A stretch of 64,000 nt of DNA from Propionibacterium acidifaciens DSM 21887 (GTDB taxonomy: Bacteria; Actinomycetota; Actinomycetes; Propionibacteriales; Propionibacteriaceae): assembly GCF_000426605.1 (NCBI RefSeq), contig NZ_AUFR01000009.1:1-64000 (forward strand), read 5' to 3'. Below the pieces are notes generated by a model that was not told where the DNA came from, did no database searches, and saw only the letters and a list, made by a program, of their open reading frames with translations. Of the stretch, positions 677 through 24,951 are shown piece by piece. Numbering within the stretch: position 1 is the first letter of the stretch; the number at the start of each line of letters is the position of its first letter. A program made the position numbers and the translations under genes.

Positions 677-1488
677 CGCTCATCCTTCTCCTCCACATCT
701 CCTGGGTGATTCGACTGTCGGTGGCGCTGCCGTGCCGACGTTCGCGGGTTCGCGCACATCTCCTCCTCAAGCTCCCGGTAGTAGGCCGTTCCCGGCTGGT
801 GGGGGAAAAAATGGTCCCCCTCGAAGCTCCGCAACTCGAACTGCGCACTCGTCATGGCCTGCCATCCGACCACGAGTTCAGCAGGCGTCTCGGTGTCCTC
901 ACACCCGACATGGGCATGAATCGGGCAGCTGAGTATCTCCCCCCGGTGGACCAAGGTCTCGTCTATGCGGTAGTCGGCAATGATCTGTGGCAGTAACCAG
1001 CCCAGCAGTTCACGGTCGGCGAGCAGCTCGGCGGGGGTACCGCCGAGCCTGACGAGTTCAGAGATCAGCGCCTCCTCGCCCTGAGAGCTGTGGAAATGGC
1101 TGACGGGGCTGCGCAGGGGCTCGTGGCGGCCAGCCACGACCATGAGCCGCGGCACCATCCCATACTCAGACTCGAGGAGCGCCGCCGTTTTGAATCCCAG
1201 CATCGCGCCCATCGAATGACCGTAGACGCAGTACTCTTGGTCGTTGATCATCTCGGCCATGGCCCCGGCGAGCGAGCCCACCAGCTGCTCCCCGTCAGTC
1301 GCGGGTTTCTCACTGATCCGTGTCGCCTTGCCGGGCAGTTCGACCGGCACGACCATGAGCCGTTCCTGGTACTTGGTCCATGGCCGGAAGACCGCGGCGG
1401 AACCGCCGGCATGGTGGAAGCAGAACATCATGCGGAGCCGGGACGCGCCTGTGTCCTCGACGAAGGGGAATTCCGTCAGTCGCTCCAT
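673..1488 (-). CDS. Type II (editing) thioesterase of the siderophore NRPS
   Basis: A 271-residue alpha/beta hydrolase of the YbtT/PchC/GrsT type. Members hydrolyse misprimed or stalled acyl groups from carrier-protein arms. Visible features are the early FCFHHAGGS block, the nucleophile elbow YGHSMGA (about residue 92-98) and the C-terminal GDHFFPH that carries the catalytic His. The start ATG overlaps the NRPS stop (TGATG) and its own stop overlaps the next start (ATGA), so it is translated as part of the biosynthetic operon. The last 30 or so residues are hydrophilic and probably disordered. It proofreads rather than builds the product. Confidence 0.93.
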   Translation of the reverse strand: MERLTEFPFVEDTGASRLRMMFCFHHAGGSAAVFRPWTKYQERLMVVPVELPGKATRISEKPATDGEQLVGSLAGAMAEMINDQEYCVYGHSMGAMLGFKTAALLESEYGMVPRLMVVAGRHEPLRSPVSHFHSSQGEEALISELVRLGGTPAELLADRELLGWLLPQIIADYRIDETLVHRGEILSCPIHAHVGCEDTETPAELVVGWQAMTSAQFELRSFEGDHFFPHQPGTAYYRELEEEMCANPRTSARQRHRQSNHPGDVEEKDER

Positions 1489-4400
1489 CAGATCTCCCCC
1501 TCCTCGACATCAGCCCCCACGCTGGCCTCGATGTGATCGGAAAGCTGACGCACCGTCGGGAGAGCAAAGACATCCCGGATGGAAATCTCCACCGAGATCT
1601 CCTTGCGGATCGCGTTGACCAAGTGGACCGCGGCGAGCGAGTCGCCGCCGAGCCGGAAGAAGTCGTCGTCGATACCGGGTTCGTCGCTGTCCAGCAGCCT
1701 CGACCACATCGCGACGAGTCGAGCGTCCCGTTCATTACGTGGACCCGTCGGAGCCATGAAAGACTCCTGGGACTGCGCTTCAAGGCTGTCCCTGTCAACC
1801 TTGCCGTTCCAGGTACGTGGGAGCTCGGCGAGTGGAACGATCCGTCGGGGCCGCATGTACTGCGGCAGTCTCTGGGCCAGTCGTCCTTCCACAAGCCCAA
1901 GGACATCCTCAGACTCGACCACAACGTACAGTTCAATATTGCCGGTGTGTTCGGACGCACGCGTCGTCGATGCAGTGCGCTCGGAAACACCGGCCCTGGT
2001 GACGACGGCGACGCACTCCCGCAATCCGGGTACCGTCAAAGCGGCCGACTCGATTTCCCCGAGCTCAATGCGGTAGCCGCCGACCTTGACCTGGCCGTCA
2101 CGTCGTCCGAGGAAGACGATCTGCCCGTCGCGCCCGTACATGGCCTGGTCGCCGGTGCGGTAGAGCCTCTCGCCCGTCCTCGGGTGCCGGAGGAAGGACT
2201 GCCCGGTCCGCACCGGGTCCTTCCAGTAGCCCAGCGCGAGCCCACGGCCGGCGATGTACAGATCGCCCGGCACGAGCTCGGGACGGTCCTCCAGCGCGTC
2301 GTCCAGGACGTACATCCGCTGGTTCGCCAGCGGCTTGCCGTAGGGGATGCTCGGCCGTTGTGCGTCGGCGACACTGATCGGATACCAGTTGGACCAGATC
2401 GAGGCCTCGGTCGCGCCGCCCAGGCCGTATGCACGGCAGTCCCGGAAACTGTCCGCCATGCGCAGCGCCACGTCGACCGGAATCCAATCTCCGCTCAGCA
2501 GCACCGCCCGCAGATGCTCGTCCACGAGTCCCCGGTCGGCCAGGTGTCCGGCGTACATCGAGAACAGCGAGGGCACCGAGTTCCACAGGCTGACCTGGTG
2601 ACTGCACGTCAGCTCCCACCAGTGCGCAGGATCACGCAGACCCTGCAGAGAGGGCATGACGATCGCGCCGCCGCAGGCGAGCATGCCGAAGACATCGTAG
2701 ACGGACAGATCGAAATTCAGTTCGGACAGAGCGAGGACACGGTCCTGCGGGCCCGCCCCGAGTCTCGCGTTGACGTCCCGGATGGTGTTGACCACCGCCC
2801 GATGGGCGATCGCGACCCCCTTGGGCACACCGGTCGTCCCGGAGGTGTAGATCACATAGGCCAATCCGTCGGCTGCGGGTCCGCTCCCGATGGGCGCCGC
2901 AGGGGAACTGACAGGAGAGAACCCGCCCATCACGTCGGCAAGTTCGATCACGGCGCGGCCACGCCCGATAGGCTCGGGCAACCCCTGACGGTCCTTTACC
3001 AGGACGATGCCGACCCCCGCGTCGGTGAGGATCCTACTGTTGCGCGCCACCGGGTGGGTGGGGTCCAGGGGGAGATAGGCGCAGCCTGCCTTGAAGACGC
3101 CGAGGACCGCGCTGATCTGATGGGTGGACTTCGGCAGCAGGATCGCGACGAGGGAGCCGGGCTCGGGGGACTCGGCCGCGATGAGCCGGGCCCAGCGCTC
3201 CGATTCCTCGTCGAGTTCTGTGTAGGACAGTTCGCGCTCGGAGTCAATGACCGCTGTGCGCCCACCGTGGTCCCGCAGGCCCTCGTCGAAGAGCCCGAGC
3301 AGCGTCTGCGTGCCGTCACCCGGCCCGGAGTCCTCGCTGAGGACGCCGGTGCGGTTGAGCGCCGCGATCCCGTCACGGTTGAGGCTTGGGCAGACTGTGA
3401 CTGTCTCCTGCCCCCAGGAGAGCGGCTGCGCTGCGAATCCCTTGGCGAGGGACTCCACCGCCTGCACCAGCGAGCGGAAAATCCCGTCCACCATCTGCTC
3501 GGGGAAGAGGGCCTCGACGGCGTCGAGGTTCAGCACCAGCCCCCCGTCGTCCTCGTAGACCTGCAGGTCCATCCACACCTGGGGCGTCTGGGAGAGCCCG
3601 TAGTCGATGACGCCGAGATAGGGGCTGGTGGACGCATCGCGTTCGACCACCCCTAGGCCGCAGGTGAAAACCACCGGCATGGTGATCTGCGATCGGCGCT
3701 GCCGGTTGAGCATGCGTTCGACGCTCACCCCGCTGACATGGCTGTGGGCCAAATTGCGCCACATCCGCCGTTGCAGGGCTCTGGCCCGCTGGCTGAAGGA
3801 GGCGCCGCTGCGAGTGTCGACGCTCAGGATCGACAGGCTCGTGAAATCGCCGACGATCGCGTCGACCTCCGGCGCGAAGGGAGTGCGCTCGAACTGTGTC
3901 AAATTGATGCTGAGCCCCGGCTCCTCACTGTATCGGGCCAGCGTCTCCGCGTAAACCTCGGCGAGGAAGGCGGCCTCGGTGAGGCCCTCCTGACGGAGGC
4001 CCTCCTTCACGGCCTGCCAGGCGGCGGGCTCCACGAGGGCGCTGTGTCGGACGAAGGCCGACGAAAAGTCCCCATCGGGCTGCGAGACCGGCAGCTGCGG
4101 CGCCGGGTGGATGCGGTCCAGGCGGTCCTCCCAGTAGTCGAGGTCCTGCTGGTAGGCCTCGCTAGCCCGGAGCCGTTCCATCGCCTCCACATAGTCCTTG
4201 AAGGAGTACGCGGGAGTCCGCCCGGCGTACGAAGCGGGCCCAGCCTCGTAGAACTCTTTCCACTCGCGGAAGACGTGGAACATACTCCAGCCATCGATGA
4301 AGACGTTGTCGAAACTCAGGAAAAGCCGTCCCTCACCCTCGCCGGTGCCCGCGTAGCGCACGTCGAAGCACGGCCACTGCGTCGGGTCGAAGCGCTGACG

Positions 4401-7400
4401 CGACATCTCTTGCCGGATTCGTTCGACGCGCTGGGTGCCCGGTAGACCCTGCCCTTGGACATGGGCGATCCTGTAGCGCGGCACCTGCGGCAGGAATCTC
4501 TGGCTCAGACCGTCCTCGCAGACGACGGCGCGGAGCATCGGGTGACGTTCGACGAGAGCGTTGAAGGAGTCCTCCAGGCGCGCCAAGTCGAGCCTTGCGG
4601 TGGCCATTTCGAAATAGCAGTGGCTCGACACCTCACCAAGCTCCACGGCTCCCGAGGCGCCGATCAGATAGGACTGCTGCACCTCTGTGAGGGGGAAGGG
4701 TGCGTACTGGTCCTCGGCGTGCACGATCGCCGGCAGTTCGTCACCGCTTCCCGTCCGCGCCGCGAGCGAGTCGATCCGGGCAGCCATGTCCTTCAGCACG
4801 GGCGAGTCGAAGACGATGTCCAGCCCGAAGTCGACATCGAAGCGCTCCTCGATCCGCTTCCTGAGTCTGGTCGCCACCAGCGAGTCCCCGCCCAGCCGGA
4901 AGTAGTCGCTGTCCGTCCCGGCATCCACGTCCAACAGCTCTTCCCAGATGCCGATCAGAGCTTCCTCGGTGGCGCTCAGCTCGACCTCACTCTTGGCCGC
5001 CGTAGGCTCGTCCTGAAAACTCTCGGGCGTGAGGAGCCCCACAAGTGCCCTCTGGTCCACCTTCCCGTTCGCGGTCAGGGGGAACTCGCCGAGGCGCATG
5101 ATCCGCTTGGGGAGCATGTACTCGGGGAGTCTGGCCGATAGCACGCGGACGGCCTCCTCGTATTCCTGGGGCGGCACAGGCACCGGTTCGGCTCCGCCGG
5201 CCCTGACCGCCAGGAAGAGCATCAGGGACTCGGTCAGCCCGATGCTCGACAACAGGCGGAAGTCGGCGCCCTCGAGCGCCTCTCGCCAGGCCTGCGCGTC
5301 GAGCAGCATCTCTCCACTGCCCTGGCGGGCATCGCTGTACTGCACGCTGAGGAAGGCGGCGCTCACCTCGGCCAGGGGCGTCGAGGAGATCGGCTCGACA
5401 AGCAGCAGCAGGCCCTGCTCGGCGAGCAGGGCGTGGATCCGTCGCAGGCTCGCGTCGACGTCGGTGCTTTGGTGGACGCTCTGATTGCAGATCGCCAGGT
5501 CGAAGCGCTCGGCGGCCGACACCGGGGCCGGCTTCCCGACAGTTGTGAACAGCATCCGCCCGAAGGAGCCGGGCTCGGACTCGTCCATCCGGTCGAGATA
5601 ATAGGGCGAGTAGTCAGCCATGGTATAGGAGGACGAGCCGCTCGCCTGGGCGTACTCGCGAGACTCACGGAGGCGTCTGGCGCCCAGTTCAAACACCCGC
5701 ATCCCCGCCTCGTCCGCCTGCCCGAGCGCGCGCACGATTTCCCTGATGGCAGCGTGCGTCAGACGCCCCACGGCCCTGCCGGACAGGAATTCCTCGACGG
5801 GCACGACCTCGGGCCTCTGGACAAACTCGGCCAGTGACTCGGCTTGCGCCGCCTCGACGAAGGCCCTGCCGAAGGGCCTCACGAAGCGATCGAGCTCGGC
5901 GCGTTCGGCCTCACTGGGCAGGACCGCGGTCACGGCGTCCCGGTCGGCGAGCCAGTGCGCCCAGCTGCGTTTCAGGGCGACGAGACGGTCGTCGGCGGAG
6001 AGCCTCCGGCAGATGAGCTGGGCGGTCCATCGGCGCATGGTCTCCATGGCGTAGCCGCACTGCACGGCTTCGTCGTGCGCGAGCGCGGCGCACAACTCCT
6101 GGTCGGCTAGCACGGGTGCCAGGACGGCGTCGACATCGATACGGCCGACGTCCTCAGCCTCCGTCTCGAGCGCTCCCCCACTCTCCGGGCCGTCCGGGGC
6201 CAGAGGCTGCTCGGGTTGGACAAAGACGACCAGCGAGCTCGAGGCCGAGCCCCGCACGGGGACGCACACGGCCCGTGTCACGGGCAACAGGGCCTCGCAG
6301 GCGGCCTCGACCTCCCCTAGCTCGATCCGGTGCCCGCGCAGCTTGATCTGATTGTCGGAGCGGCCGAGGAATTCGATGGTCCCATCCTGCCAGAAGCAGC
6401 CCAGATCACCGGTACGGTACCAGCGGCTTCCCTCTGCGTCCACGAACTTCTTCGCAGTGAGCTCCGGGTCGTCGACATAGCCGGTGGCGACGCCGAGCCC
6501 ACCGATCCACAGCTCCCCCGCCACGTGGTCCGGGCAGTCCCGTCCCTCGGCGTCGACCACTCGATAGGCCTGGTGCTCCAAGGCGCGCCCGTAGGGGATC
6601 GAGACCCAGTCCTCGGGGACGGCGCCGGTCAGTTCGATGGCGTTCGACCAGATGGCGGCCTCAGTCGCCCCTCCCATGGCGAGAATGTGCCCGTCGGGCA
6701 TGAGCTCGGCCATCCGGCTCGGCAGCCCCACGTCGATCCAGTCGCCGGACAGCAGCACGTGACGCAAGCTCGCAAGCCTTTCCGGCGCGCCGGCGGCGCT
6801 CGTCAGAAGCATCTCGAACAGAGTGGGGACCGAGTTCCACACGGTGATCCGGCAGGACTCCACCAGGTCCAGCCAGACGACGGCGTCGCGGCGCGCCTCG
6901 TCGGCGATGGTCACCAGGCAACCGCCCGCCGCGAGGACGCCGAAGGCGTCGTAGACCGACAGATCGAAGTCGAAGGCCGAGACACCCAGCACCCGGTCAT
7001 AGGGCCTGATGCCGAGACGGCGGTTCACCACCTCGATCGTGTTCCAGGCGGCTCCGTGGCTGATCTCGACCCCTTTCGGGACACCGGTGGTCCCGGAGGT
7101 GTAGATGACATAGGCGGGGTCCTGCGGTCGTGGCCTGGGCAGGGACAGCTCCCCGCTGCCGCGGCGGGCCTCTTCGAAGCCGATGACGCGCACACCGTTC
7201 TCGTACCACCGTTCCCAGGGCTCCTGATCGCTCAGCAGGAAGCCGATCCGCGGGGAGGAGAGGATGGCCGCGAGCCGCTCCGGCGGCTGCTGAGGATTCA
7301 CCGGGACATAGGCGGCTCCGGTGAGCATCACCCCGAAGGCGGCGATGACCTGCTCGGGGCCTCTGTCCATCATGACCGCACAGAGCCCACCGCGCCGCAA

Positions 7401-9263
7401 CCCGACAGCCGCCAGTGAGCCAGCAACGGCCCGCGCGCGTTCGACGAACTCGCGGTGGTTCAGTGTGCGCCCGTCGTGGGCGCGCAGGGCGGGACGGTCA
7501 GGGAATCTGCTAGCCGCTGCGAGCAGTTGGTGGACCAGAGTGGTCTCGGGCAGGGCCCAGTTCGTCAGCTCGGCGCGTTCGGCGCGCCTGGCGAGCACTC
7601 CTCGAGGCTCGACGGGCCCAGCGGATCCCAGCTGCGAGGCGATCGCCTGCTCGGTCTCGCGCACGAGACAGTCGACGATCTCGTCGAGCAGGCCCTCGGG
7701 GAAAATCTGCTCGACGGCGTCGCAGATAAGGGTGAAGCCGTCAATAGTGTTGAAGACCTGCAGATCGATCCAGACCTGCGGGGTCTGCGAGATCATATAG
7801 CCGATCTCGCCGAAGGTCTCCACGAACTCCTCGTTCACCAGCGGCTCACCGAGATTGCAGGAAAAGACGACAGGCGCGAGGAACTGCTCGCCGCGTCGGG
7901 CACGCAGATCGCGCAGGACCCGGACCGCCGAGTAGCCACAGTGGACGACGTCCTCGTAGAAGGACTCCTGGATGGCGCGCAGGTCCTCGACGAAGGACCG
8001 TCGGCTGCTCAGGTCGACGTCGGTGAGGGTGAGGGTGGTGAAGTCCGCCACGACGTCCTCGATGGCGGGATCGCTGTCACGGTTGAACAGCGGAACGCTC
8101 ATGAGGAAGCGCTTCTCCTCGCTCCACTGCCCGATCGTGCGCGCATAGGCAGTCAGGAGCACCATCGCCGGTGTCGTGCCGTGCCGCTCGCAGGCCGTGC
8201 GCAGGGCCCTCCAGCTGCTCCGGTCGAAGCTGTGACAGCGGCGCACGAAACGCGGAGCCGCGGCAGGTTTCCCGCCCCGGCGCAGGGGCAGCCGCGGGCC
8301 TGAGGGGAGTTCGTCGATGCGCGCGAGCCAGTACTGCCTGTCCCGCTCGACGTCCTCGGCGCCCTCACGCGCCCTGGTCTCCAGATAGTCCGCGAAACTC
8401 CACTCTGGGTCGGTCCGGGGCGCCTCGCCCGTCGCGTAGTGGTGCGCGAGATCGCGCAAGATGATTTGGAAGCTCTGCACATCGCAGACCAACAGGTCGA
8501 TGTCGAAATGCAGGAGTGCCCTGTTCTCATCGAGCAGGCTCAGCTGCAGGCAGCACACCTGCCCCTCGTCGATGGCCAGGAGCCGGTGGGACAACGCCTC
8601 GCGCATCTCCAGTAGCGCCGCCTGCTGCTCATCGGCGCCCAGGCCGGTCAGATCATGGATGGCCACGGAGGCGTCGGCCGGTTCGGCGCGCACGTACTGT
8701 CTGCCGTCGTCGGTGTAGCAGGCCCTCAGCATGGGATGGGCGCGCAGCAGCGTCTCCCAGGAAGCCTCCAGCCGGGCCGGGTCCAGCCAGCCGGTCTCGA
8801 CCTCCACATAGCCGTGACAGCCGACACCGCCCATGTACTGCCCCTGCCTGCGGCCGATCCAATAGGCGTACTGCACGTCCGTCAGGTCGAAGGGCTCGGC
8901 ATCACTGCGCGCCCCCGCGGCCTCGGGCGGCTCCGCGCCCTGACCGATCCCGGCATCGGCAGGGTCTTGGGGCCCCGACTGCGCGAACGCCATGGCCATC
9001 CCTTCAGCCGAGCCGTCGGCAGGCTCGCCCGGGGAGGCCTCGACGAGCAGCTGCACCCATTCGGCGAGCGTGGGACGGCGCATGAACGAGCCGAAGGAGA
9101 CGCGGTAGCCCTGCTTGATCCATCCGGCAAGCAACCTCATGGTCGGCAGGGACTCCAGCCCCAGTGTGAGCAGATTGTCCGTGCCAGCGATCTCGGTCTC
9201 GGCGCCAAGAATCGCCGAGACCGACGCCGCGAGCCTCTCGCGGATCTCGTCCTTGGTGAGCAC
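1488..9263 (-). CDS. PchE/HMWP2-like NRPS: ArCP-Cy-A(MT-like)-PCP-Cy-A-PCP, two cysteine modules
   Basis: 2591 residues. An N-terminal aryl carrier protein (phosphopantetheine Ser38 in LGLES) receives the starter acid. Cy1 covers about 123-560 and has the cyclisation motif DLLVCDVQS near 253-265, replacing the HHxxxDG of ordinary condensation domains. The A1 core YTSGTTGVPKG is near 718. An MT-fold insertion lies at about 1050-1390 but its SAM loop is degenerate (FELGARRL), as expected for a PchE-type epimerase-like domain. PCP1 (GGDS) is near 1460. Cy2 has DNVFIDGWS near 1650. A2 is about 1990-2480 and PCP2 is near 2540. Pocket residues read DLYNLSMIW (A1) and DLYNLSLIW (A2), matching the cysteine code DLYNMSLIW at all but one or two positions. 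Each module should make a thiazoline. There is no TE, so the chain passes to the PchF-like NRPS. The start has a fair context, 12 bp after the ligase stop. Confidence 0.95.
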   Translation of the reverse strand: MLTKDEIRERLAASVSAILGAETEIAGTDNLLTLGLESLPTMRLLAGWIKQGYRVSFGSFMRRPTLAEWVQLLVEASPGEPADGSAEGMAMAFAQSGPQDPADAGIGQGAEPPEAAGARSDAEPFDLTDVQYAYWIGRRQGQYMGGVGCHGYVEVETGWLDPARLEASWETLLRAHPMLRACYTDDGRQYVRAEPADASVAIHDLTGLGADEQQAALLEMREALSHRLLAIDEGQVCCLQLSLLDENRALLHFDIDLLVCDVQSFQIILRDLAHHYATGEAPRTDPEWSFADYLETRAREGAEDVERDRQYWLARIDELPSGPRLPLRRGGKPAAAPRFVRRCHSFDRSSWRALRTACERHGTTPAMVLLTAYARTIGQWSEEKRFLMSVPLFNRDSDPAIEDVVADFTTLTLTDVDLSSRRSFVEDLRAIQESFYEDVVHCGYSAVRVLRDLRARRGEQFLAPVVFSCNLGEPLVNEEFVETFGEIGYMISQTPQVWIDLQVFNTIDGFTLICDAVEQIFPEGLLDEIVDCLVRETEQAIASQLGSAGPVEPRGVLARRAERAELTNWALPETTLVHQLLAAASRFPDRPALRAHDGRTLNHREFVERARAVAGSLAAVGLRRGGLCAVMMDRGPEQVIAAFGVMLTGAAYVPVNPQQPPERLAAILSSPRIGFLLSDQEPWERWYENGVRVIGFEEARRGSGELSLPRPRPQDPAYVIYTSGTTGVPKGVEISHGAAWNTIEVVNRRLGIRPYDRVLGVSAFDFDLSVYDAFGVLAAGGCLVTIADEARRDAVVWLDLVESCRITVWNSVPTLFEMLLTSAAGAPERLASLRHVLLSGDWIDVGLPSRMAELMPDGHILAMGGATEAAIWSNAIELTGAVPEDWVSIPYGRALEHQAYRVVDAEGRDCPDHVAGELWIGGLGVATGYVDDPELTAKKFVDAEGSRWYRTGDLGCFWQDGTIEFLGRSDNQIKLRGHRIELGEVEAACEALLPVTRAVCVPVRGSASSSLVVFVQPEQPLAPDGPESGGALETEAEDVGRIDVDAVLAPVLADQELCAALAHDEAVQCGYAMETMRRWTAQLICRRLSADDRLVALKRSWAHWLADRDAVTAVLPSEAERAELDRFVRPFGRAFVEAAQAESLAEFVQRPEVVPVEEFLSGRAVGRLTHAAIREIVRALGQADEAGMRVFELGARRLRESREYAQASGSSSYTMADYSPYYLDRMDESEPGSFGRMLFTTVGKPAPVSAAERFDLAICNQSVHQSTDVDASLRRIHALLAEQGLLLLVEPISSTPLAEVSAAFLSVQYSDARQGSGEMLLDAQAWREALEGADFRLLSSIGLTESLMLFLAVRAGGAEPVPVPPQEYEEAVRVLSARLPEYMLPKRIMRLGEFPLTANGKVDQRALVGLLTPESFQDEPTAAKSEVELSATEEALIGIWEELLDVDAGTDSDYFRLGGDSLVATRLRKRIEERFDVDFGLDIVFDSPVLKDMAARIDSLAARTGSGDELPAIVHAEDQYAPFPLTEVQQSYLIGASGAVELGEVSSHCYFEMATARLDLARLEDSFNALVERHPMLRAVVCEDGLSQRFLPQVPRYRIAHVQGQGLPGTQRVERIRQEMSRQRFDPTQWPCFDVRYAGTGEGEGRLFLSFDNVFIDGWSMFHVFREWKEFYEAGPASYAGRTPAYSFKDYVEAMERLRASEAYQQDLDYWEDRLDRIHPAPQLPVSQPDGDFSSAFVRHSALVEPAAWQAVKEGLRQEGLTEAAFLAEVYAETLARYSEEPGLSINLTQFERTPFAPEVDAIVGDFTSLSILSVDTRSGASFSQRARALQRRMWRNLAHSHVSGVSVERMLNRQRRSQITMPVVFTCGLGVVERDASTSPYLGVIDYGLSQTPQVWMDLQVYEDDGGLVLNLDAVEALFPEQMVDGIFRSLVQAVESLAKGFAAQPLSWGQETVTVCPSLNRDGIAALNRTGVLSEDSGPGDGTQTLLGLFDEGLRDHGGRTAVIDSERELSYTELDEESERWARLIAAESPEPGSLVAILLPKSTHQISAVLGVFKAGCAYLPLDPTHPVARNSRILTDAGVGIVLVKDRQGLPEPIGRGRAVIELADVMGGFSPVSSPAAPIGSGPAADGLAYVIYTSGTTGVPKGVAIAHRAVVNTIRDVNARLGAGPQDRVLALSELNFDLSVYDVFGMLACGGAIVMPSLQGLRDPAHWWELTCSHQVSLWNSVPSLFSMYAGHLADRGLVDEHLRAVLLSGDWIPVDVALRMADSFRDCRAYGLGGATEASIWSNWYPISVADAQRPSIPYGKPLANQRMYVLDDALEDRPELVPGDLYIAGRGLALGYWKDPVRTGQSFLRHPRTGERLYRTGDQAMYGRDGQIVFLGRRDGQVKVGGYRIELGEIESAALTVPGLRECVAVVTRAGVSERTASTTRASEHTGNIELYVVVESEDVLGLVEGRLAQRLPQYMRPRRIVPLAELPRTWNGKVDRDSLEAQSQESFMAPTGPRNERDARLVAMWSRLLDSDEPGIDDDFFRLGGDSLAAVHLVNAIRKEISVEISIRDVFALPTVRQLSDHIEASVGADVEEGEI

Positions 9264-9275: not shown

Positions 9276-10916
9276 TCAGTCTGTCCGCTCGGTCCGCTGC
9301 TGGGTCATCGCGCGGAGCGCTTCCTTGTCGACCTTGCCGATGTTGGTCCGGGGGATCGCATCGACGACGATGACCTCGTCGGGCACTTTGTAGCGAGCAA
9401 TACCCTGCTCCTCGAAGTCCTTCATGACCCTCCGCCGGCCGAGGGGCCCGTCGGTGACGACGACCGCCACCGTCCGCTCCCCCAGCTCCTCATCGGGTGC
9501 GCCGAAGACCGCAGCCTCGCGGACGCCACCGATCAGCCCCAGGAGGTGCTCGATCTCGTGCGGGGAGACGTTCTCCCCCAGCCGGTTGATCTGCTCAACG
9601 ACGCGGCCGCAGACGACGAGATTGCCGTCGGCATCCAGATAGCCACGGTCGCCGGTCCGCAGGAAACCATCGGCGGTGAAGCAGTCGTCATCGGCGTGGG
9701 CGCCGTGATAGCCAAGGAAGGTGTAGGGGCCCTTCTCGATGATCTCGCCGACGACACCGGCGGGCAGCTGTCTGCCCTGCGGGTCGACGATCCGCAGGAC
9801 GTCACCGTCCGAGATCGGCGTCCCCTGGGTGCCGAGGGCCACCAGCTCCGGATCGTCCAGGCGGGTGAACGTGGTGATTCCCTCGCCCAGCCCGTATCCC
9901 TGCTGGATCAGCGCACCTGTCCTGGCCATGAGCGAACGCCCCAGCTTCGCATCGAGCCTGGCTGCCCCGATGAGGATCTGCCGGAGACTGGACAGCTGGG
10001 CTGGGTACCACTCCAGGGCCTCGTTCCACAGCTGGGCGACGGCTGGCACGATCGCAGTCACTGTCACCCGGTTGGCCTCGATCGCGGCGAAGGCCTCGTC
10101 GAAGGCGGCGCTGGCGCACATCACTGCGGTCCCGCCGCACAGCAGCGTCCCCAGGACGCCCGGCTGCGCCAGAGGGAAGTCGTGGGAGCTCGAGAGCACC
10201 GCAAGGTAGACGCTGTCGGGACCGATGCCGCAGCGCAGAGCGGCCGCCCTCGCATTGCAGGCATAGGCCTCGTGCACCCGCGGGATGATCTTGGGTTCGC
10301 TCGTCGTGCCCCCGGAGAGCAGATTCAGGGCCGCGTCCCGGTGTCCAGGCCCGGCCACCGGCAGCGGCGGGGGCTCGGGATCGGCCGTCCCAGGCAGCGG
10401 GGGCAGTCGGTGGCACGGCGCGGGTCCGGCGTGCTCAGGGCCAGCGTCGGCGTAGAGGAGACGGATGCCCAGCTCCTGCGGATCGGCTTCCTCGACCATC
10501 GCGACGCAGTCGAATCCGAGCTGGTCCCGCCCCCCGATGTAGGCGACGGGACGAAGCTGCCGGGCCAGCCGGACCAGTTCGCTGTGACGGTGTGAGGGCA
10601 GCATGAGCGTCGGGACGGCGCCGATCCTCATGAGCGCGAACAGGCTCACCAGATAGGCGGCGCTGTTCGGCAGCTGCACGAGCACCTGGTCTCCTCCCGA
10701 CAGCCCCGCCTCAAGGAATGCCCGGGCCCAGTGCGCGATCGTCAGGTCCAGCTGCCGATAGCTCAGCTCTGCGTCTGGGGCGACGACGGCGCGGCGCTCG
10801 CTGTGGCGCAGGCAGACCTCGTGCAGTTCCTCGCACAGGCTCCTCCTGCGCAGATGACCGCTCGCCTCATAGGCGTCAAGGATCTCCTGTGCCCTCATCC
10901 GCGCCCCGGCACTCAT
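9276..10916 (-). CDS. Aryl-AMP ligase loading the siderophore starter (YbtE/PchD/DhbE family)
   Basis: 546 residues, close to the usual length of about 525-545. It should adenylate an aryl acid and load it on the ArCP of the large NRPS. The P-loop-like core LSGGTTSEPKI, LRTGDRGYLD and the final NIGKVDKEAL lysine motif are all present. The pocket stretch that reads HNYPLSSPG in DhbE-type enzymes is HDFPLAQPG here. The Asn that contacts the 2-hydroxyl is thus Asp, and the Ser/Cys position that separates dihydroxybenzoate from salicylate enzymes is Gln. The substrate may not be plain salicylate. The ATG overlaps the VOC gene's stop (ATGA), giving the start MSAGARMRAQ. The family is certain; the substrate is open. 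Confidence 0.93.
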   Translation of the reverse strand: MSAGARMRAQEILDAYEASGHLRRRSLCEELHEVCLRHSERRAVVAPDAELSYRQLDLTIAHWARAFLEAGLSGGDQVLVQLPNSAAYLVSLFALMRIGAVPTLMLPSHRHSELVRLARQLRPVAYIGGRDQLGFDCVAMVEEADPQELGIRLLYADAGPEHAGPAPCHRLPPLPGTADPEPPPLPVAGPGHRDAALNLLSGGTTSEPKIIPRVHEAYACNARAAALRCGIGPDSVYLAVLSSSHDFPLAQPGVLGTLLCGGTAVMCASAAFDEAFAAIEANRVTVTAIVPAVAQLWNEALEWYPAQLSSLRQILIGAARLDAKLGRSLMARTGALIQQGYGLGEGITTFTRLDDPELVALGTQGTPISDGDVLRIVDPQGRQLPAGVVGEIIEKGPYTFLGYHGAHADDDCFTADGFLRTGDRGYLDADGNLVVCGRVVEQINRLGENVSPHEIEHLLGLIGGVREAAVFGAPDEELGERTVAVVVTDGPLGRRRVMKDFEEQGIARYKVPDEVIVVDAIPRTNIGKVDKEALRAMTQQRTERTD

Positions 10917-11521
10917 GCGAAACTCACCTCGATGGTGCCGTCCCCGATGCTGCACCTGAGTCGTTCCTCGGCCTGCGCGCCCAGGCAGATTCCCACGGCT
11001 GTCTCGCTTCCGGCGTAGCGGATCTCCTCGATCCGCGTGAAACCATTGGGATGGGCTGATGCGCGGTGCGTGTCCACCGCGAACGGGGTGACGAACATCG
11101 GCACACTCCAATCGTCCGGCACCAGACAGCGGCAGGAGAGCCGACGCCCGTGCGGGTCCTTCCTGGCGACCGGCGAGATCACCGTTGACCGGTCGTGCAC
11201 GGCGCACAGATGTTCCAGGGCCGTGAACTTCTCGCGTTCGACCTCGAAGACGATCCGGCTGTAGCCCTGCGGGGCCTGCGCCAAGCGGTCATAGTCCTCG
11301 ACCATGCGCCGGTGCCCTGTGAGCGCGAGAGCACCGCGCACCACGGCAGGCATGTGGATCCCCGCGATGATCTCCACATAGGGGCCGGTGGAGAAGTAGA
11401 TCAGCGCATTGTGCGGGTCCTTGGCCTTGCCGTACTCGACCTCGAAACCCTCGGCGCGGAACTCGGCCACGGCCTGTTCCAGATCGTCCGCCTTGTAGAT
11501 GACATGTCCGATCCTGGCCAT
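10913..11521 (-). CDS. VOC/glyoxalase-like protein of unknown role in the siderophore operon
   Basis: 202 residues, starting MARIGHVIYKADDLEQAV. The HVIYKADDLEQAVAEF opening and the GPYVEIIAG strand are typical of the vicinal-oxygen-chelate fold (glyoxalase-like domain). The ATG lies 5 nt after the NRPS stop and the gene's own stop overlaps the ligase start, so it is co-translated with the assembly line. No substrate can be read from the sequence. Tailoring of the product, a resistance or chelate-binding role, or a ring-modifying reaction are all possible inferences. It is not one of the standard pyochelin or yersiniabactin genes. Confidence 0.8.
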   Translation of the reverse strand: MARIGHVIYKADDLEQAVAEFRAEGFEVEYGKAKDPHNALIYFSTGPYVEIIAGIHMPAVVRGALALTGHRRMVEDYDRLAQAPQGYSRIVFEVEREKFTALEHLCAVHDRSTVISPVARKDPHGRRLSCRCLVPDDWSVPMFVTPFAVDTHRASAHPNGFTRIEEIRYAGSETAVGICLGAQAEERLRCSIGDGTIEVSFA

Positions 11522-11526
11522 GCTTG

Positions 11527-14500
11527 TCAATCCCCCTGGTCCTGCTCGAAGTGGGTCAGGATCGAGCGATAGTTCTCCTCGGTCAGGCAGTCGGAGTGCG
11601 AACCACTGATGATCCCGGTCCGCAGCTGCCCCAGGACGGTGCTGGGCCAGTCGACGTCGCCGCCGAGCGAGGGATAGAAGCCATCGACTCCGCGCTCGGG
11701 CTGCAGAGCGAGCACCGTGCCCAAGTAGACATCCGGCCGGTATCCGATCGTCCCGCGCAGGGAGTGCCGGAAGACGTCGTAGAGGATCTCGAGCATGGCT
11801 CGGGCGCTGCCTGCATCGTTCTCGTAGCCCTTGACCGTCTCGTAGATCCGCCGGCGTCGATGCTTCGGCGACATGCGCGAGCAGGCAGAGAAATAGGAGC
11901 CGAGCGAGGCGTAGCGGCCGTCGAGGGCGCACAGCTCCTCGTCCGTGATGTCCCTGTTCTGGCCACCGAGGATGTGTTCGAGGCCCTCACGGAGCAACTC
12001 GATGCTGAAATCAGCGCCGAGAGCCCGTGGGTCGGCCTCGACGACGCACCCGTAGGCGAACTCGCACAGCATCTCGTTGGCGATGCGGTGCGGGCACAGA
12101 TGGGTGCTCACCGCGACCACCCTGCAGACCCGGCGCCCCAGCTCGGTGAGGATCTTCGCCGTCTCCAACGCGAAGAAGCCTCCGATGCAGTAGCCGACCA
12201 GCTCGTAGCTGTCCATGTCCAGTTCCAGCAGGTCCTGTGCGTAGAGGCGCGCCCGTTCGGCGATGAGAGCATCAGTGGGACTGGCCAGGTACTCGTCGGC
12301 GTCACCGGAGGTGAAACCGACGTGGGCCGTTGCGGGGCTGCGCTCCATGAGCGCCGGAACCAGGAGATCGTAGTCCTTGATGCGCCCGGTACCGGCGTGG
12401 AAGAAGGCCCGGCACGAGCCCTGGTCCTCCCCGAGCCCGTAGACGTGCAGGCGCTGTGCACCAGCAGCAGCCGCAGAAGGCGACGAGACGGCAGGGCCGC
12501 TCGGAGCCACCCGCGCTCCATCTGTGGCGACCACGGTATCGGCGGTCGTCTGGGGGTCGGAGACCTCAACCGCCCCACCACCGAGGGCCTCGGCGATCCC
12601 GGCGACCGTGGGCTTCTTGAGCATCTCACGCATGATGAGATCCCAGCTCTGGTCCTTCAGCGCGTCGATCTCCTGGCGCATCCTTGTGACGGCCTTGGCC
12701 ATGAGCAGCGAGTCGCCACCGGCTGCGTAGAAGTCCTCGTCGCGGCCGATCCGCTCGTTCTCGAGGACATCGCGCCACAGGGCCGCGATCCGCTCCTCCA
12801 ACCCCCCCTGGGGCGCGGCGAGCGGCTGCTCCTCGGATTCCTGACGGGACGTGAACGAGCTCAGGAGAGCCTTCCTATCGATCTTCCCGTTCGCACTCAA
12901 CGGCATCGCGTCCATCACGGTGAGGGATGCGGGCACCATGTAGCCGGGAAGCATCTCGCGCAGAAAGCCCGTCAGCTCCTCCTCGTCGATCCTGCGCGCA
13001 CCAGGCTCGGTGAGGACGAACAGGCGCTGGCCGCACTCGCGCAGCGGGTCGAACCGGCCGGGGTACTCGGCGATCCTGCGCAGTCCCGCCCTGGTGAAGA
13101 CTCCCTCCCACTGCTCCTCGTCGAGGAAGACCCGATGGCCGTCGGCGCGCACATCGGTGAACTCGACCAGGCTCATCTTGATCGATATCGAGATGAGCGC
13201 GGCGTAAAGCTCGGTGACCGGTTCGATCATGACGATCACGCCGTCGGGCCGCCGCAGCTGGTTCAGCCGGGCGAAGGTCTGGTCGATGTTCACCGCATTG
13301 TGCAGGACGTTCGCACAGACGATCACGTCGTAGGCGCCCAGCTCGACGTCCTGCCCGGCACACTCGGCGTTGATGTCGAAGAGCCCGTAGCTCATGAAGC
13401 CGTAGTCGCGATAGCTCTCCCTCGCATTGCGCAGGAAGAAGGTGGACAAATCGGTGAACCGGTACTCCGCGATGTTCTCGGGGAGCTTAGGCAGGATGTA
13501 CGTGGTGCTGGCGCCCACGCCCGCCCCGATCTCCAGGACACGGATCGGGCGGTCCCCGCGTGACTCGGCGACTCTCGCCACCGCCTCCGCGACGGCCGCA
13601 TTGGTGGCCTCGCTGATCCTGTTCTCCGCGTAGATGGCGTGGGCGTTGTCGGTCCTGCCGCCGGGGAAGAACAGCTCAAGAGGATTCACCTCGCCACGGA
13701 TCTGGCGCAGCAGTGTGCCCGCCGCGTAATGCTGGTACTCGAACAGAGCGGAGCTGTTGAGCACCCGGGCCTCCATGGCCGCGAAGTGGTCCCAACGTTC
13801 GGCCATGCGGTAGTGCTCGAGGCTCTCGGACGTGAGGGTGAAGCCCCCCTCGTCGGCCTGCAGGACGCCCTCAGCCGTGAGCATGCCGAGCCAGCGACCC
13901 ACCAGCTCCCGGTACTCGGGATCGGGCCTGAGCCTGGCGACGATCTGCTCCTGGGAATGAACCGCCCCTGGCTCGGTGAAAAGCCCAGCCTCGACGAAGG
14001 CCGCCAGCAGAGCGGCCAGGGCGGCCTCGTTGCCGGCCTTCGTCCATGCCGCATAGCATGCGGCGTCGGGACCGCCGGCGTCACCCGAGGACCAGCGCTC
14101 ACGCAGCGCCGCGCCCAGCGCCTCGGGTGTGTCCGCCCGCTCTTCATCTGCCGCAGAAGAGCCCTGCTGCTGGGCGGGCGTCACGAAGGCCCTCAGCTTC
14201 TTACGGCCGTCTGTCTCTTCCACGACTACGACGGCACGGCCGATGTCCTGGTGCTCTTCAAGGACGGCCTCGATCTCACCGATCTCGACCCGGTAGCCGT
14301 TGATCTTGACTTGGGTGTCCGCCCGGCCGTGGAAGTCGATCACCCCGTCCGGGCGGTAGCTGCCGATGTCGCCGGTGTCGTAGAGACGGCGGCCCTGCTT
14401 GGCCGAGAAGAAGAATTTGCGTTCCGTGGTCTCGGGATCGTTGAAGTAGCCGCTCGCGAGGCTCTCGCCGCTGATGTGGATCCTACCCCTGACCCCGTCG

Positions 14501-17082
14501 GGGCACTCGTTCATGAATGCGTCGAGTACGTACATGCCCTGACGGGACAGGGCGCTGCCGTAGGGGATGTTCTCCTCGCCGGTGTGGCCGTTCATCCGAT
14601 GGTGGATCGACCAGATCCCTCCCTCCGTGGCCCCGCCGAGGCTCACGAGTTCGGCGCGGGGGAAGTGCGAAGCGGCCTGGGCGGGCAGGGTGCGGGCAAT
14701 GAGATCACCCGAGAGCAGGACGAGCCCAAGAATCTCATCGGGTGCCAGGCCAGCAGCCACGCGCTCGGCCAGGAGCATCTGGAACAGGGCGGGCACCGAG
14801 TTCCAGGTGTCCACCCGCCAAGTGCGCATCAGTTCGATCCAGCTGCTCGGGTCCTTCGCCTCGGACTCGAGGGGCAAGACGAGGCATCCCCCGCTCGCGA
14901 AGGTCCCGAAGACGTCGTAGACGGACAGATCGAAGGACAGCTTGGACAGGCCGAGCACCGTCCGCGGAGTTGCTCCCGCGAGGCGCTGGTTGACGTCCTC
15001 GATCGTGTTCATGGCGGCGGTGTGTGTCATTACGACGCCCTTGGGCGTTCCCGTACTGCCGGAGGTGAAGATGATGTAGGCCGTGTCCTCCGCCGGACCG
15101 GCCACCGGAACCGTCCCGTCCCAGGACAGTGGGCCCAATGCGTCGACGTCGACGACGGCCAGCTGCCCGTCCGTCGCGCGATAGTTCGCATCGGCGATGA
15201 TCGCCCGGGGGCGGCACAGCGAGATCATCCGGCGCTGGCGCGCCGACGGCTGGTCGTGGTCGACGGGGACATAGGCCGCTCCTCTGGAGACGACGGCGAG
15301 AACCGCCGCCACCTGCCAGACGCCCTTACCCAGGACGATCGCGACCCGGTCCCCTCTGCCAACCCCGGACAGCTGCGCGTCCACGGCTTGGACGTGGCCG
15401 GCGAGCTCGCTATAGCTGAAGCTCTCGCCGCCGCACACCAGTGCGCACGCCTCGGGCTGGCTCTGGGCCCTTCCCCAGAAACCAGTCTGGAGTGTCCGGG
15501 GCGCCAGCGGCGCGTCTCTCCGGTGGATCCGCTCACGCACCTGCTGCTGCCGCTCGCCCAGCTGCACGATGTCCTCGGCATGCCAGGGCTCCTCCTCGGC
15601 GCCGAGCAGCCGCTCGAGCGCCTCGGTGAAGGCCTCCCACATAGCCTCGAGGACCGCGGGCGCGAGGATGCCCTCGCGGACGTCCCAGTTGATGTTGCAA
15701 CCGCCGGCCTCCTCGAAGGCCTGGCAGTCGATCCAGACCTGCGGTGTGCGACTGACGCCATGGACGAGTTCAAGGGCTCGTCCTTCCCTGCGTCGCAGAC
15801 CGGCACCCAGCGCCCCGGTGAAGACGATCGGCACGACGGCACTTCCGCCTCTGGCCCGGCCGAGCTCGCGCAGTACGTCGAGGCCGCCGAACGCCGAGTG
15901 AGAAAGCTCGTCGACGAGCTGCTCCTGGGTCTTGCACACCCGCTCAAGGAAGCTACCGGTCTCCCGGCGGCTGGCGTGAACGCTCACCTCGGTGAAGTCC
16001 CCTATGATGCGCTCGACGCCCGGGAGCTCATCACCGCGGTTCATCGAGGTGATGTTCACGCAGAACTCCGGCTGGGAGGACCAGCGCCGGATGACATCGA
16101 TGTAGGCGGTCAGCAGCACATTCGACGGTGTCACGCCGAAGGCAGCGGCCCGTTCCACCAGCAAGGCCCACTCGGCAGGGCCGCACCGCCAGCTATGACG
16201 GGTGAAGCGGACCGTCTCCCCCTCGCATCTCTGCGGGGCGGTGAGAATCGGCAATGAGGGCCTCTCCGGCATGGACCCGATACGCCCGAGCCAGTACTCC
16301 TTCGCGCTCTCGTACTCGGCGCGCCCGGCCGGGGTCTCCTCGCGGATAGCCCGCGCAACCAGGACGTCCCTGAAGGTAGCCCGAGGCAGGGGCTCCAGCG
16401 GCTTGCCCTCGTAGAGGTCCATCAGTTCCTCGACCATGACCGAGACGCTGATGAAATCGGCGATGATCATGTCGATCGAGAACTGCAAGATGCTGCACTC
16501 TTCGAACTGGAGGATCCGGAAGCAGTGAAGGGGCCAAGCTCCCAGCGGATAGCTCCGCTCCTCCATCTCGCGGCGGTGGCGCAAATGCTCCTCGTCAGGC
16601 GACTGCGGATCATGGCCACGCAGATCGATTTCCTCCAGCCGCGGCATCCTCTCGACGGGCAGTTCCTCAGGAGGGACAACCCGCAGCGAGTCCGGGGGCA
16701 GCACGAATGCCGAGAGCATGTCGTGGCGGCGGATCAGTTCGTGCCAAGCCCTCTCCAGCCTCTCGCGCCCCACTGGCTGTGTGCGCAACTCCGCATAGCT
16801 GTGGCAGCCGGTCCCACCGAGTTCGTAGCCGGCGTGCTGGCCGGTGGCGTAGGCCCGCTGAATGTCCGTCATCCCGAAGGGCATGAAGCGCGCGGCGCTA
16901 TCATGCTCGATAGCTTTCTCGGCCCTCAGGTACTCAAGGATCTCGGCCTTGTGACTCCTCAGGCTCGCCAGGTCTGCTGGGCCCAGCGCGCCCTTGGGTG
17001 ACCGGTAGCCCAGTCTGTCCCCGTTGGCCCACAGGACGATGCCCCGCTGCTGGAATTCTTCAACCAGTATTGCGATGTTCAC
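11527..17082 (-). CDS. PchF-like NRPS: TubC docking-Cy-A-MT-PCP-TE, terminal cysteine module
   Basis: 1851 residues from GTG 17082, chosen because AGGAG lies 8 nt upstream and MNIAILVEEFQQRGI starts a TubC N-terminal docking domain exactly there; an ATG 18 nt earlier is possible. Cy is about 65-500 with DMIIADFIS near 205. A has FTSGSTGTPKG near 673 and the pocket code DLYNLSLIW, i.e. cysteine. An intact methyltransferase (VLEIGAGVGAS near 1183) is inserted before A10 (NGKIDRKAL near 1400), as in PchF. The PCP Ser is near 1457 (GGDSLLM). The TE (about 1530-1851) has GYCIGG with Cys as nucleophile, and GSHSD carries the His. It should add, cyclise and probably N-methylate the last cysteine, then release the chain. 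Confidence 0.95.
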   Translation of the reverse strand: MNIAILVEEFQQRGIVLWANGDRLGYRSPKGALGPADLASLRSHKAEILEYLRAEKAIEHDSAARFMPFGMTDIQRAYATGQHAGYELGGTGCHSYAELRTQPVGRERLERAWHELIRRHDMLSAFVLPPDSLRVVPPEELPVERMPRLEEIDLRGHDPQSPDEEHLRHRREMEERSYPLGAWPLHCFRILQFEECSILQFSIDMIIADFISVSVMVEELMDLYEGKPLEPLPRATFRDVLVARAIREETPAGRAEYESAKEYWLGRIGSMPERPSLPILTAPQRCEGETVRFTRHSWRCGPAEWALLVERAAAFGVTPSNVLLTAYIDVIRRWSSQPEFCVNITSMNRGDELPGVERIIGDFTEVSVHASRRETGSFLERVCKTQEQLVDELSHSAFGGLDVLRELGRARGGSAVVPIVFTGALGAGLRRREGRALELVHGVSRTPQVWIDCQAFEEAGGCNINWDVREGILAPAVLEAMWEAFTEALERLLGAEEEPWHAEDIVQLGERQQQVRERIHRRDAPLAPRTLQTGFWGRAQSQPEACALVCGGESFSYSELAGHVQAVDAQLSGVGRGDRVAIVLGKGVWQVAAVLAVVSRGAAYVPVDHDQPSARQRRMISLCRPRAIIADANYRATDGQLAVVDVDALGPLSWDGTVPVAGPAEDTAYIIFTSGSTGTPKGVVMTHTAAMNTIEDVNQRLAGATPRTVLGLSKLSFDLSVYDVFGTFASGGCLVLPLESEAKDPSSWIELMRTWRVDTWNSVPALFQMLLAERVAAGLAPDEILGLVLLSGDLIARTLPAQAASHFPRAELVSLGGATEGGIWSIHHRMNGHTGEENIPYGSALSRQGMYVLDAFMNECPDGVRGRIHISGESLASGYFNDPETTERKFFFSAKQGRRLYDTGDIGSYRPDGVIDFHGRADTQVKINGYRVEIGEIEAVLEEHQDIGRAVVVVEETDGRKKLRAFVTPAQQQGSSAADEERADTPEALGAALRERWSSGDAGGPDAACYAAWTKAGNEAALAALLAAFVEAGLFTEPGAVHSQEQIVARLRPDPEYRELVGRWLGMLTAEGVLQADEGGFTLTSESLEHYRMAERWDHFAAMEARVLNSSALFEYQHYAAGTLLRQIRGEVNPLELFFPGGRTDNAHAIYAENRISEATNAAVAEAVARVAESRGDRPIRVLEIGAGVGASTTYILPKLPENIAEYRFTDLSTFFLRNARESYRDYGFMSYGLFDINAECAGQDVELGAYDVIVCANVLHNAVNIDQTFARLNQLRRPDGVIVMIEPVTELYAALISISIKMSLVEFTDVRADGHRVFLDEEQWEGVFTRAGLRRIAEYPGRFDPLRECGQRLFVLTEPGARRIDEEELTGFLREMLPGYMVPASLTVMDAMPLSANGKIDRKALLSSFTSRQESEEQPLAAPQGGLEERIAALWRDVLENERIGRDEDFYAAGGDSLLMAKAVTRMRQEIDALKDQSWDLIMREMLKKPTVAGIAEALGGGAVEVSDPQTTADTVVATDGARVAPSGPAVSSPSAAAAGAQRLHVYGLGEDQGSCRAFFHAGTGRIKDYDLLVPALMERSPATAHVGFTSGDADEYLASPTDALIAERARLYAQDLLELDMDSYELVGYCIGGFFALETAKILTELGRRVCRVVAVSTHLCPHRIANEMLCEFAYGCVVEADPRALGADFSIELLREGLEHILGGQNRDITDEELCALDGRYASLGSYFSACSRMSPKHRRRRIYETVKGYENDAGSARAMLEILYDVFRHSLRGTIGYRPDVYLGTVLALQPERGVDGFYPSLGGDVDWPSTVLGQLRTGIISGSHSDCLTEENYRSILTHFEQDQGD

Positions 17083-17134
17083 TGAAAGCTCTCCTGACAT
17101 TCTCGAAATCACGAGCGAGTCGCTCTGGGCACCG

Positions 17135-18217
17135 TCATCTGGGTGCGCCATCTGGCATCCGCTCCGTGAGGTGCGCGAGGGAAAGGAACCGGGGAGGTGT
17201 CTCAGCACCCAACGGTTCGGCCGGGCCCATGAGCTGGCCTGCATGGGCCCACACCGCGCAGAGGGTCAGCATGTACTCGGCCTCGCGGGCCCGAGCCGCC
17301 GGGCTACCCGTCTCCTGGCGGAGCGCATCGAGGAATCCGGCAACGGCTGAGGGCCAGATGCGCTCGAACTGGCAGCGCCTGGTCACCTCGGTCTCGACGG
17401 CGAGGCTCTCATGCAACCGGACGGTGCTCAGGGCCTCGTCGGCCTCGATCTCCAAGAGACCCTCCGTAGTGCGGGGGGTTGTGACATTGGGGTGCCAGAT
17501 GATCTGCCCATCGGTCTCGGTCAGCACAAGATTGCCCGTCACCGTGAAAACGGTGATCCGATGGCCCACATGGGCGAAGTCATCGGGGTTGAGAGGATTC
17601 ATCCGATTGACGACGCGCAGGCTCACGGGGACACCCCTGAAGGATCCGCCCAGCTGCGTAAGCACGCCGGCGACGGTGCCCTGCGCCTGGATCTCCCAAG
17701 GCGTGAAACCACCGGTGATCCGACCTACGAGGTCAATCATCGAGAAGAGGAAGTGGATGCTGCACTCGGCCTCGACGCCAAGGATCCCGTGGTCCTCGCG
17801 CAGGACCCGCGCCATCTCCAGATAGCTCGCAATGGTGGGGCTGTGACGGTAGAAGGGGTTGATGAAGAAGGCGCCGCCGCTCCTGGCTGCCTCGCGATAA
17901 CACTCCACCGCGTCGTCACGGTGGATCGGGTGCTCGAGAACGACGTGCCGACCGTCCGCAAGAAAACGCCTGGCCAGCTGGGAACCCTTGCCGCCCACGA
18001 TGCCCGAGCGGACCACCACGCAAGCCATATCGAACTCGGGCAGCTCCTCAATCGTGGTAAACAGCGGCAACCGCTGCCGGCTGGCGAAGGCGCGGGACTG
18101 CTCGCTCCCGCGCGAGAGTATGCCGACCAGTTCGTAGTGCTCGGGAAGTCGGCGGACACCCGCCACGTAGACGCGGCCGAAGGTGGTTCCGCACACGACC
18201 ACGCGTGTTCTGTTCAT
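17135..18217 (-). CDS. Thiazolinyl imide reductase (PchG/YbtU-like)
   Basis: 360 residues of the Gfo/Idh/MocA-like fold used by PchG and Irp3/YbtU. These use NADPH to reduce a carrier-bound thiazoline to thiazolidine during siderophore assembly. The N terminus RVVVCGTTFGRVYVAGV is the characteristic dinucleotide-binding start of this family, followed by LEHPIHRDD where GFO-type enzymes have EKP. The start ATG follows GAAGGAAG-type ribosome binding sequence. It lies 52 nt before the PchF-like NRPS and 94 nt after the first gene of the operon. Its presence implies that one of the three rings is reduced; which one cannot be read here. Confidence 0.93.
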   Translation of the reverse strand: MNRTRVVVCGTTFGRVYVAGVRRLPEHYELVGILSRGSEQSRAFASRQRLPLFTTIEELPEFDMACVVVRSGIVGGKGSQLARRFLADGRHVVLEHPIHRDDAVECYREAARSGGAFFINPFYRHSPTIASYLEMARVLREDHGILGVEAECSIHFLFSMIDLVGRITGGFTPWEIQAQGTVAGVLTQLGGSFRGVPVSLRVVNRMNPLNPDDFAHVGHRITVFTVTGNLVLTETDGQIIWHPNVTTPRTTEGLLEIEADEALSTVRLHESLAVETEVTRRCQFERIWPSAVAGFLDALRQETGSPAARAREAEYMLTLCAVWAHAGQLMGPAEPLGAETPPRFLSLAHLTERMPDGAPR

Positions 18218-19493: not shown

Positions 19494-19531
19494 CCGCTTC
19501 CCCTGAAACGAAGAGGCAGTCTGGATGTAAG

Positions 19532-19550: not shown

Positions 19551-19689
19551 GCTCAACACTGCAGTCAACGATGTCTCAGACCTGAATTGGGCCTCTTGAG
19601 GCGGCTTGGGTGTTTCTGGTGTGCTTTGTTGCTTGTCAGGACGTTTTGGGTGGGTGGTGTGGGTCACTGATGGCGGGGTGGGATCCGGT

Positions 19690-23892: not shown

Positions 23893-23895
23893 CCC

Positions 23896-24891: not shown

Positions 24892-24951
24892 GAGCATTCC
24901 TCCCATGGGGTACGCGTCGCCGTTCCATACAGCCTGTCAGCATGACAGTGG

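Follow-up and report, generated by a model that had tools for sequence, protein, structure and literature searches.

Siderophore aryl starters are predicted from sequence with a rule on two residues of the loading ligase, Asn at position 235 and Ser or Cys at position 240 (numbering of DhbE). The preliminary description of the present DNA had relied on Asn235 binding the 2-hydroxyl and on Ser/Cys240 setting the specificity, and this holds in those parts of PMC11253843, PMC12005286 and PMC3672683 that treat the pocket, in which position 240 together with 236 and 337/339 separates 2,3-dihydroxybenzoate (2,3-DHB) from salicylate. Asp/Gln at the two sites was sought in the characterised salicylate ligases that we aligned or found tabulated, and occurs in none of them; CahJ (5wm2), MbtA (5kei), PchD (7tyb) and YbtE are all Asn/Cys, as is EqbD. 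In the excerpt of PMC3672683 that holds its Table 1, the N/C pair is given for YbtE, PchD and the 3-hydroxypicolinate ligase SnbA; thus, even 3-hydroxypicolinate needs no Asp. At the level of gene clusters, the closest described systems are eqb of Streptococcus equi and a cluster of Clostridium kluyveri, compared here by their description in sections of PMC3672683, with three Cy domains, four carriers, a thiazoline reductase, a type II thioesterase, an extra oxidoreductase and no salicylate-forming enzyme. An aryl cap plus three cysteine-derived rings is proposed for equibactin in the same sections.

We analyzed a window (the whole stretch of DNA, 64,000 nucleotides, from Propionibacterium acidifaciens DSM 21887) that holds a siderophore cluster with these same traits. 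Our literature search found no description of this cluster. All of its genes are on the minus strand, and they are given below together with two pocket segments of the ligase, whose coordinates were computed from the residue numbers.

673..1488, minus strand, type II thioesterase (PF00975)
1488..9263, minus strand, NRPS1, ArCP-Cy-A(MT-like insert)-PCP-Cy-A-PCP (Pfam, N-terminal carrier PF00550, motifs)
9276..10916, minus strand, predicted starter-loading aryl-acid AMP ligase P0001, 546 aa (translation; AMP-binding Pfam; CahJ match E 1e-113)
9867..9968, minus strand, remaining pocket of the ligase, residues 317-350 (GAARL ... QQGYGLGEGITTF)
10158..10184, minus strand, HDFPLAQPG motif of the ligase, residues 245-253 = DhbE H234-G242
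10913..11521, minus strand, VOC / Glyoxalase_3 protein, 202 aa (PF13468, 64.6 bits, cut-off 25.1)
11527..17244 (putative start), minus strand, NRPS2, TubC_N-Cy-A-MT-PCP-TE (Pfam, motifs)
17135..18217, minus strand, thiazolinyl imide reductase (TIGR01761, 254 bits, cut-off 188.8)
18312..19496, minus strand, Rossmann-fold oxidoreductase (weak Pfam matches; homologs in related clusters)
21153..22328, minus strand, EntC/DhbC-type isochorismate synthase (TIGR00543, 262.9 bits, cut-off 224.75)
22316..24906, minus strand, ABC exporter: ABC-2 permeases 22316-23170 and 23104-23892, DrrA-type ATPase 23896-24906
25487..29067, minus strand, two permease-ATPase ABC proteins (homologs flank related clusters)

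The Cy domains carry three Cy motifs and the reductase matches TIGR01761, the features by which clusters of the pyochelin/yersiniabactin/equibactin type are known. Every A domain has a D-L-x-x-Y motif matching the Cys entries of Table 1 of PMC3672683, the cysteine specificity being read by eye at three positions. The three Cy domains and these motifs together therefore predict an aryl cap followed by three cysteine-derived rings. The methyltransferase-like insert sits in the first A domain of NRPS1, and the aryl carrier adjoining the ligase (PF00550 at NRPS1 residues 9-73, 25.0 bits against a cut-off of 20.8, with GLESL) is likely the acceptor of the ligase. The Glyoxalase_3 gene shares 4 bases with the ligase start, and its homologs occur in the related clusters L187, L181 and L046. 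The Rossmann-fold oxidoreductase is the C-terminal part of a longer ORF (18312-20339), the second ABC-2 permease (23104-23892) was assigned by homology to a copy on contig C37, and the ABC proteins at 25487..29067 appear positioned as in siderophore import systems. The cluster differs from eqb, whose EqbD keeps the salicylate code, in having its own A domain per module, an isochorismate synthase and the Glyoxalase_3 gene.

The ligase is encoded by one stand-alone gene with its ATG at 10916 and its stop at 9276. It resembles CahJ, MbtA, PchD, YbtE and EqbD in full-length homology, ANL motifs, an ArCP partner and a siderophore NRPS cluster as its setting; the nearest solved structures are those of the salicylate ligase CahJ (best, E 1e-113), the 2,3-DHB ligases, PchD and MbtA. 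The best NCBIfam match, TIGR02275 (2,3-DHB ligase) at 403 bits, lies far below its equivalog threshold of 723.55. The ANL core is present, with S201, G202, G203, T205, K209, E345, D423, R438 and K528 invariant among 54 aligned proteins; it covers SGGTT..PK, the GEG glutamate, GD, GR and the terminal Lys, and the catalytic A3/A5/A7/A8/A10 residues lie in invariant columns. The A5 motif is QQGYGLGEGI, departing from the QQVFGMAEGL of aryl-acid ligases, a motif named in the relevant portion of PMC11253843 and printed there as QQVxFMAEGL. A phmmer alignment to DhbE (1md9) matches H245 to H234, D246 to N235 and Q251 to S240 without gaps over the 200 residues around the motif, and so confirms the altered aryl pocket HDFPLAQPG that had been proposed. 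The Pro at DhbE 241, after the code loop, is kept in the ligase (P252).

Homologs were drawn from relatives, from the class, and from the phyla of an Eubacteriales and a Pseudomonas genome; in the searches of 400 genomes three candidates were scored per genome. Besides the window there were 105 matches, 89 of which were used, while 16 that were low-scoring or stop-bearing were left out. Neither the window protein nor its P. australiense ortholog is among the 129 rows counted, and duplicate loci and alignments shorter than 450 columns were omitted as well. Position 235 is Asn in 128 of these 129 other homologs and Ser in one, with Asp in none. At position 240, Cys occurs 68 times and Ser 58 times, and the lone Gln240 is an alignment slip in L020. 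Gly at 329 and Thr at 337 are likewise found in 0 of the 129. We scanned 84,980 species genomes, a set that possibly did not include the window's own genome, for HD(F/Y)PLxQPG, run as HD-F/Y-P-L/F-[A,S,G,C,W]-QPG. There were 17 matches, only one of them a true ligase: L033 of Propionibacterium australiense, 97% identical over its full 546 residues. The remaining 16 fall in chance reading frames or in unrelated proteins. The Asp/Gln motif is thus well beyond chance and conserved in two species, to which, within our sampling, the pocket change appears confined.

Between these two species the ligase has a dS of 0.086 and a dN of 0.016 (ratio 0.18), with no stop, and the ratio over the whole cluster is similar, at 0.09-0.38. 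Their ligases differ at 18 amino acids, none of them in the pocket, where all ten residues are kept. The ligase could have lost its function or be drifting under relaxed constraint, a reading that draws on its long terminal branch. We consider it very improbable, given the constraint shared with the rest of the cluster and the identical pocket in both species; with the catalytic residues intact and a dN/dS of 0.18, the altered pocket is not decay.

The pocket was then considered as a whole. Ten positions were taken from the contacts of CahJ (N256, C261, G327, G328, V350, L358), BasE (N242, F243, S247, V336, V344, Y346) and DhbE (H234, A333), as given in the pertinent sections of PMC12005286 and PMC11253843. 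Seven of the ten are off the salicylate-type consensus (N235D, C240Q, G307A, V329G, A333G, L337T and Y339F), and all of these except the Tyr-to-Phe change separate the ligase from CahJ, MbtA, PchD, YbtE and EqbD. Five had gone unmentioned in the preliminary description (G307A, V329G, A333G, L/V337T, Y339F), and these are carried by the 9867..9968 segment. Phe236 is kept, while Gln240 and Thr337 depart from the salicylate-ligase code (Cys240, Phe236, Ile/Leu at 337/339). Compared to DhbE, EntE and BasE (TIGR02275), which share the fold family, the ligase has no Ser240 and its genome no EntB-like isochorismatase; the case for 2,3-DHB as starter was lowered on both counts. Of the two suggestions made earlier, that of a rebuilt pocket stands, whereas that of another aromatic acid does not follow, the substrate not being readable from the sequence.

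Four of the ten pocket residues are private to the Propionibacterium pair, compared to at most two in any of the 52 further aligned proteins; L172, whose branch is equally long, has none. Private residues are enriched about threefold in the pocket (Fisher one-sided p about 0.03, or 0.06 at an 80% threshold), a modest enrichment because the whole protein is fast-evolving, with 63 of 507 columns private. We also summed side-chain volumes with standard residue values. Over nine first-shell positions the sum is 983, compared to a mean of 1062 overall and 1088 for Cys240 ligases, or about 105 cubic angstroms under the latter; this is the second lowest of 129, with 1 of 128 homologs lower. Over all ten positions 3 of 128 are lower, and over the six CahJ contact positions 8 of 128, which is not extreme. 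The Gln at 240 is larger than Cys and counts against an enlarged pocket. By these sums, which are drawn from sequence and not from a structure, the pocket base looks opened, with position 240 filled by a polar side chain.

An Asp at 235 invites comparison with NRPS A domains for amino acids, in which Asp235 is the alpha-amino anchor (PMC11253843, in the section on these domains). The ligase might by analogy activate anthranilate or another 2-amino aryl acid, Asp235 binding the 2-amino group, and TrpE in the genome makes anthranilate available. We regard this as improbable: the conserved isochorismate synthase in the cluster would have no purpose, and the DhbE variants selected for a 2-amino substrate, which two reviews name differently in the portions we drew on, were changed at A333 and V337 and not from N235 to Asp (PMC11253843, same limits). 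The same portion of PMC11253843 reports that DhbE N235Q favours 3-hydroxybenzoate. The case for 3-hydroxypicolinate as starter was lowered, SnbA carrying the ordinary N/F/C code.

A tree of 125 rows was built, from which L018, L019, L020, L109 and two ligases of contig C37 were dropped. The ligase falls among the Cys240 (salicylate-type) ligases on the second-longest end branch (1.21, with a median of 0.15). Its neighbours are two proteins from the Eubacteriales-phylum search and one from the Pseudomonas-phylum search, the exact placement being unsure because of the long branch. The ligase likely descends from a salicylate ligase and was later remodelled. This ancestry and the retained Phe236 would suit an enzyme that has kept salicylate as its substrate in a pocket of different construction. 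Such an enzyme could draw its salicylate from the host, from isochorismate that slowly loses pyruvate without an enzyme, a reaction discussed in a section of PMC11416591, or from an unrecognised lyase such as the Glyoxalase_3 protein adjoining the ligase. S. equi offers a parallel, having neither a salicylate synthase nor pchA/pchB homologs and needing salicylate as a supplement in defined medium, according to the pages of PMC3672683 on this point. Yet EqbD has a normal N/F/C code, so that the pocket need not be rebuilt for scavenging. The salicylate ligases named above, all characterised, are without exception Asn/Cys, and a related cluster equipped with a salicylate synthase (L045/L187) likewise encodes the Glyoxalase_3 protein, which is therefore not tied to the missing lyase. 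We hold salicylate activation to be doubtful, though it deserves more weight than the other alternatives.

The supply of the starter bears on the same question. The chorismate enzyme in the cluster scores 115.8 bits against TIGR03494 (salicylate synthase), for which the cut-off is 325. In the segment corresponding to PAVTASG it has Ala, as does the menaquinone-type enzyme, where salicylate synthases and TrpE have Thr; Thr in this segment marks lyase activity. The surroundings of eight related ligase loci were compared. In four of them a chorismate enzyme of the salicylate synthase type lies close to the ligase, and none has one of the EntC type. Three of these four score 422-470 bits as salicylate synthase; the fourth shares one open frame with its ligase and has the same motif in the PAVTASG segment. 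An aryl ligase and a salicylate synthase make up one 1014-aa frame, a natural fusion, at L185:15178-18222 (G1135). The other four related clusters have no chorismate enzyme within the stretch compared, and it is thus not odd in itself for the source to be distant or absent.

No salicylate synthase over the TIGR03494 cut-off was found in the window's genome (G000) or in P. australiense, and neither a PchB-type lyase nor an EntB-like isochorismatase was found in the window's genome. Its single isochorismatase-family protein is nicotinamidase-like (best match NF008623, 101 bits, cut-off 174). P. australiense has one additional isochorismatase-family protein, a hydrolase-like ORF, which weakens the case for complete absence in that species. 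Of the known ways to salicylate, a salicylate synthase or an isochorismate synthase with a lyase, only the isochorismate synthase is present. The housekeeping chorismate mutase, the only one in the genome (TIGR01795, 128 bits, cut-off 107.55) and present also in two congeners without the ligase, was considered as the missing lyase and lowered, with 28 bits against the isochorismate lyase model NF005475 (cut-off 126). By eye, it has Arg-Glu (DPGRE) at what we take to be the position of PchB Val55. At that site PchB has Val55, and Glu marks mutases, as stated in the relevant passage of PMC12329711. The oxidoreductase and the Glyoxalase_3 protein were likewise lowered as candidates for the lyase, both having homologs in related clusters that possess a salicylate synthase. 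Isochorismate thus appears to be made on purpose, in a genome without a known enzyme that takes it to salicylate or 2,3-DHB. The swapped chorismate enzyme and the missing lyase, neither of them seen in the preliminary description, are stronger hints of a different starter than the pocket motif.

Isochorismate synthase with neither lyase nor isochorismatase raises the possibility that isochorismate itself is adenylated and loaded, with loss of pyruvate on the ArCP or on a later intermediate giving a salicyl unit. The larger pocket base suggested by the volume sums would accommodate it, and Asp could accept a hydrogen bond from the free ring hydroxyl. Plant PBS3 provides a precedent, by analogy only, in the ATP-driven activation of isochorismate followed by enolpyruvyl loss to salicylate (PMC11416591, in the part on this enzyme); the ligase would be its bacterial, carrier-bound counterpart. 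Unlike the ligase, PBS3 is a plant acyl-adenylase of the GH3 family with a glutamate acceptor. We found no newly gained basic residue in the pocket to pair with the second carboxylate, Gln240 would occupy the site to which the enolpyruvyl group would point, and our literature search found no bacterial precedent. This route, a special case of the reading we prefer, is unlikely as it stands, though less so than that with a 2-amino acid.

The reading we prefer, to which we give a probability of about 0.55, is that the ligase with its rebuilt pocket loads onto the ArCP of NRPS1 an acid other than ready-made salicylate or 2,3-DHB, probably one derived from isochorismate. A stand-alone ANL ligase of salicylate-ligase ancestry would adenylate the starter acid and transfer it to the N-terminal aryl carrier of NRPS1; NRPS1 and NRPS2 would add three cysteines as thiazoline/thiazolidine rings, the thiazolinyl imide reductase would convert one thiazoline to a thiazolidine, and the thioesterase would free the product. 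For the supply, a salicylate synthase would have given way to an isochorismate synthase of the EntC type, unaccompanied by a lyase. The starter supply and the pocket look to have changed together, and the acid is therefore probably not plain salicylate. The sequence, the pocket changes, the purifying selection, the tree position, the gene content and the absences are direct evidence. From these we infer the enzymatic activity, the loading of the ArCP and the nature of the acid. The starter may be isochorismate, a meta-substituted product of isochorismate, for which the 3-hydroxybenzoate preference of DhbE N235Q is a parallel, salicylate that is formed or scavenged, or anthranilate, candidates among which sequence cannot choose.

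The surroundings of the cluster differ between the two species. In P. australiense, three further genes separate that of the oxidoreductase from that of the isochorismate synthase (L041:4148-7593), encoding an RmlC-RmlD fusion, an EryCIII-like glycosyltransferase and a hexapeptide acetyltransferase. The corresponding window segment (19580-20996) is shorter and unrelated, apart from 128 bp retained from the end of the acetyltransferase gene at 97.7% identity; a disrupted transposase of the IS3 type can be made out in it by eye. The product of P. australiense may carry a sugar that the product of the window strain lacks. At the cluster end, the P. australiense alignment starts at window position 333, and the first 320 bases resemble, by eye, a transposase end. 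BREX-type defence genes adjoin the cluster at 29220-50024, with BrxL, PglZ, BrxB, a sigma-factor gene whose best NCBIfam match is MzaA (239 bits, cut-off 800) and a helicase similar to the Dnd restriction protein. The window's genome has a second aryl-ligase NRPS cluster (L044, G000:C37:6000-20000), in which a carrier-ligase fusion with HNYANSSPG lies beside a second ligase with HNFAMASPG and whose ABC exporter genes are 59-71% identical to those of the window cluster.

The ligase belongs to a known enzyme family and stands apart from it in its pocket. It is a selected natural exception to the Asn235 and Ser/Cys240 code and offers a direct test of it. A new starter acid could come to light through it, or else a hitherto undescribed way of turning isochorismate into a chelating cap, and the cluster predicts a new thiazoline-type metallophore in Propionibacterium. 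If true, direct activation of isochorismate would replace both the salicylate synthase and the PchB lyase.
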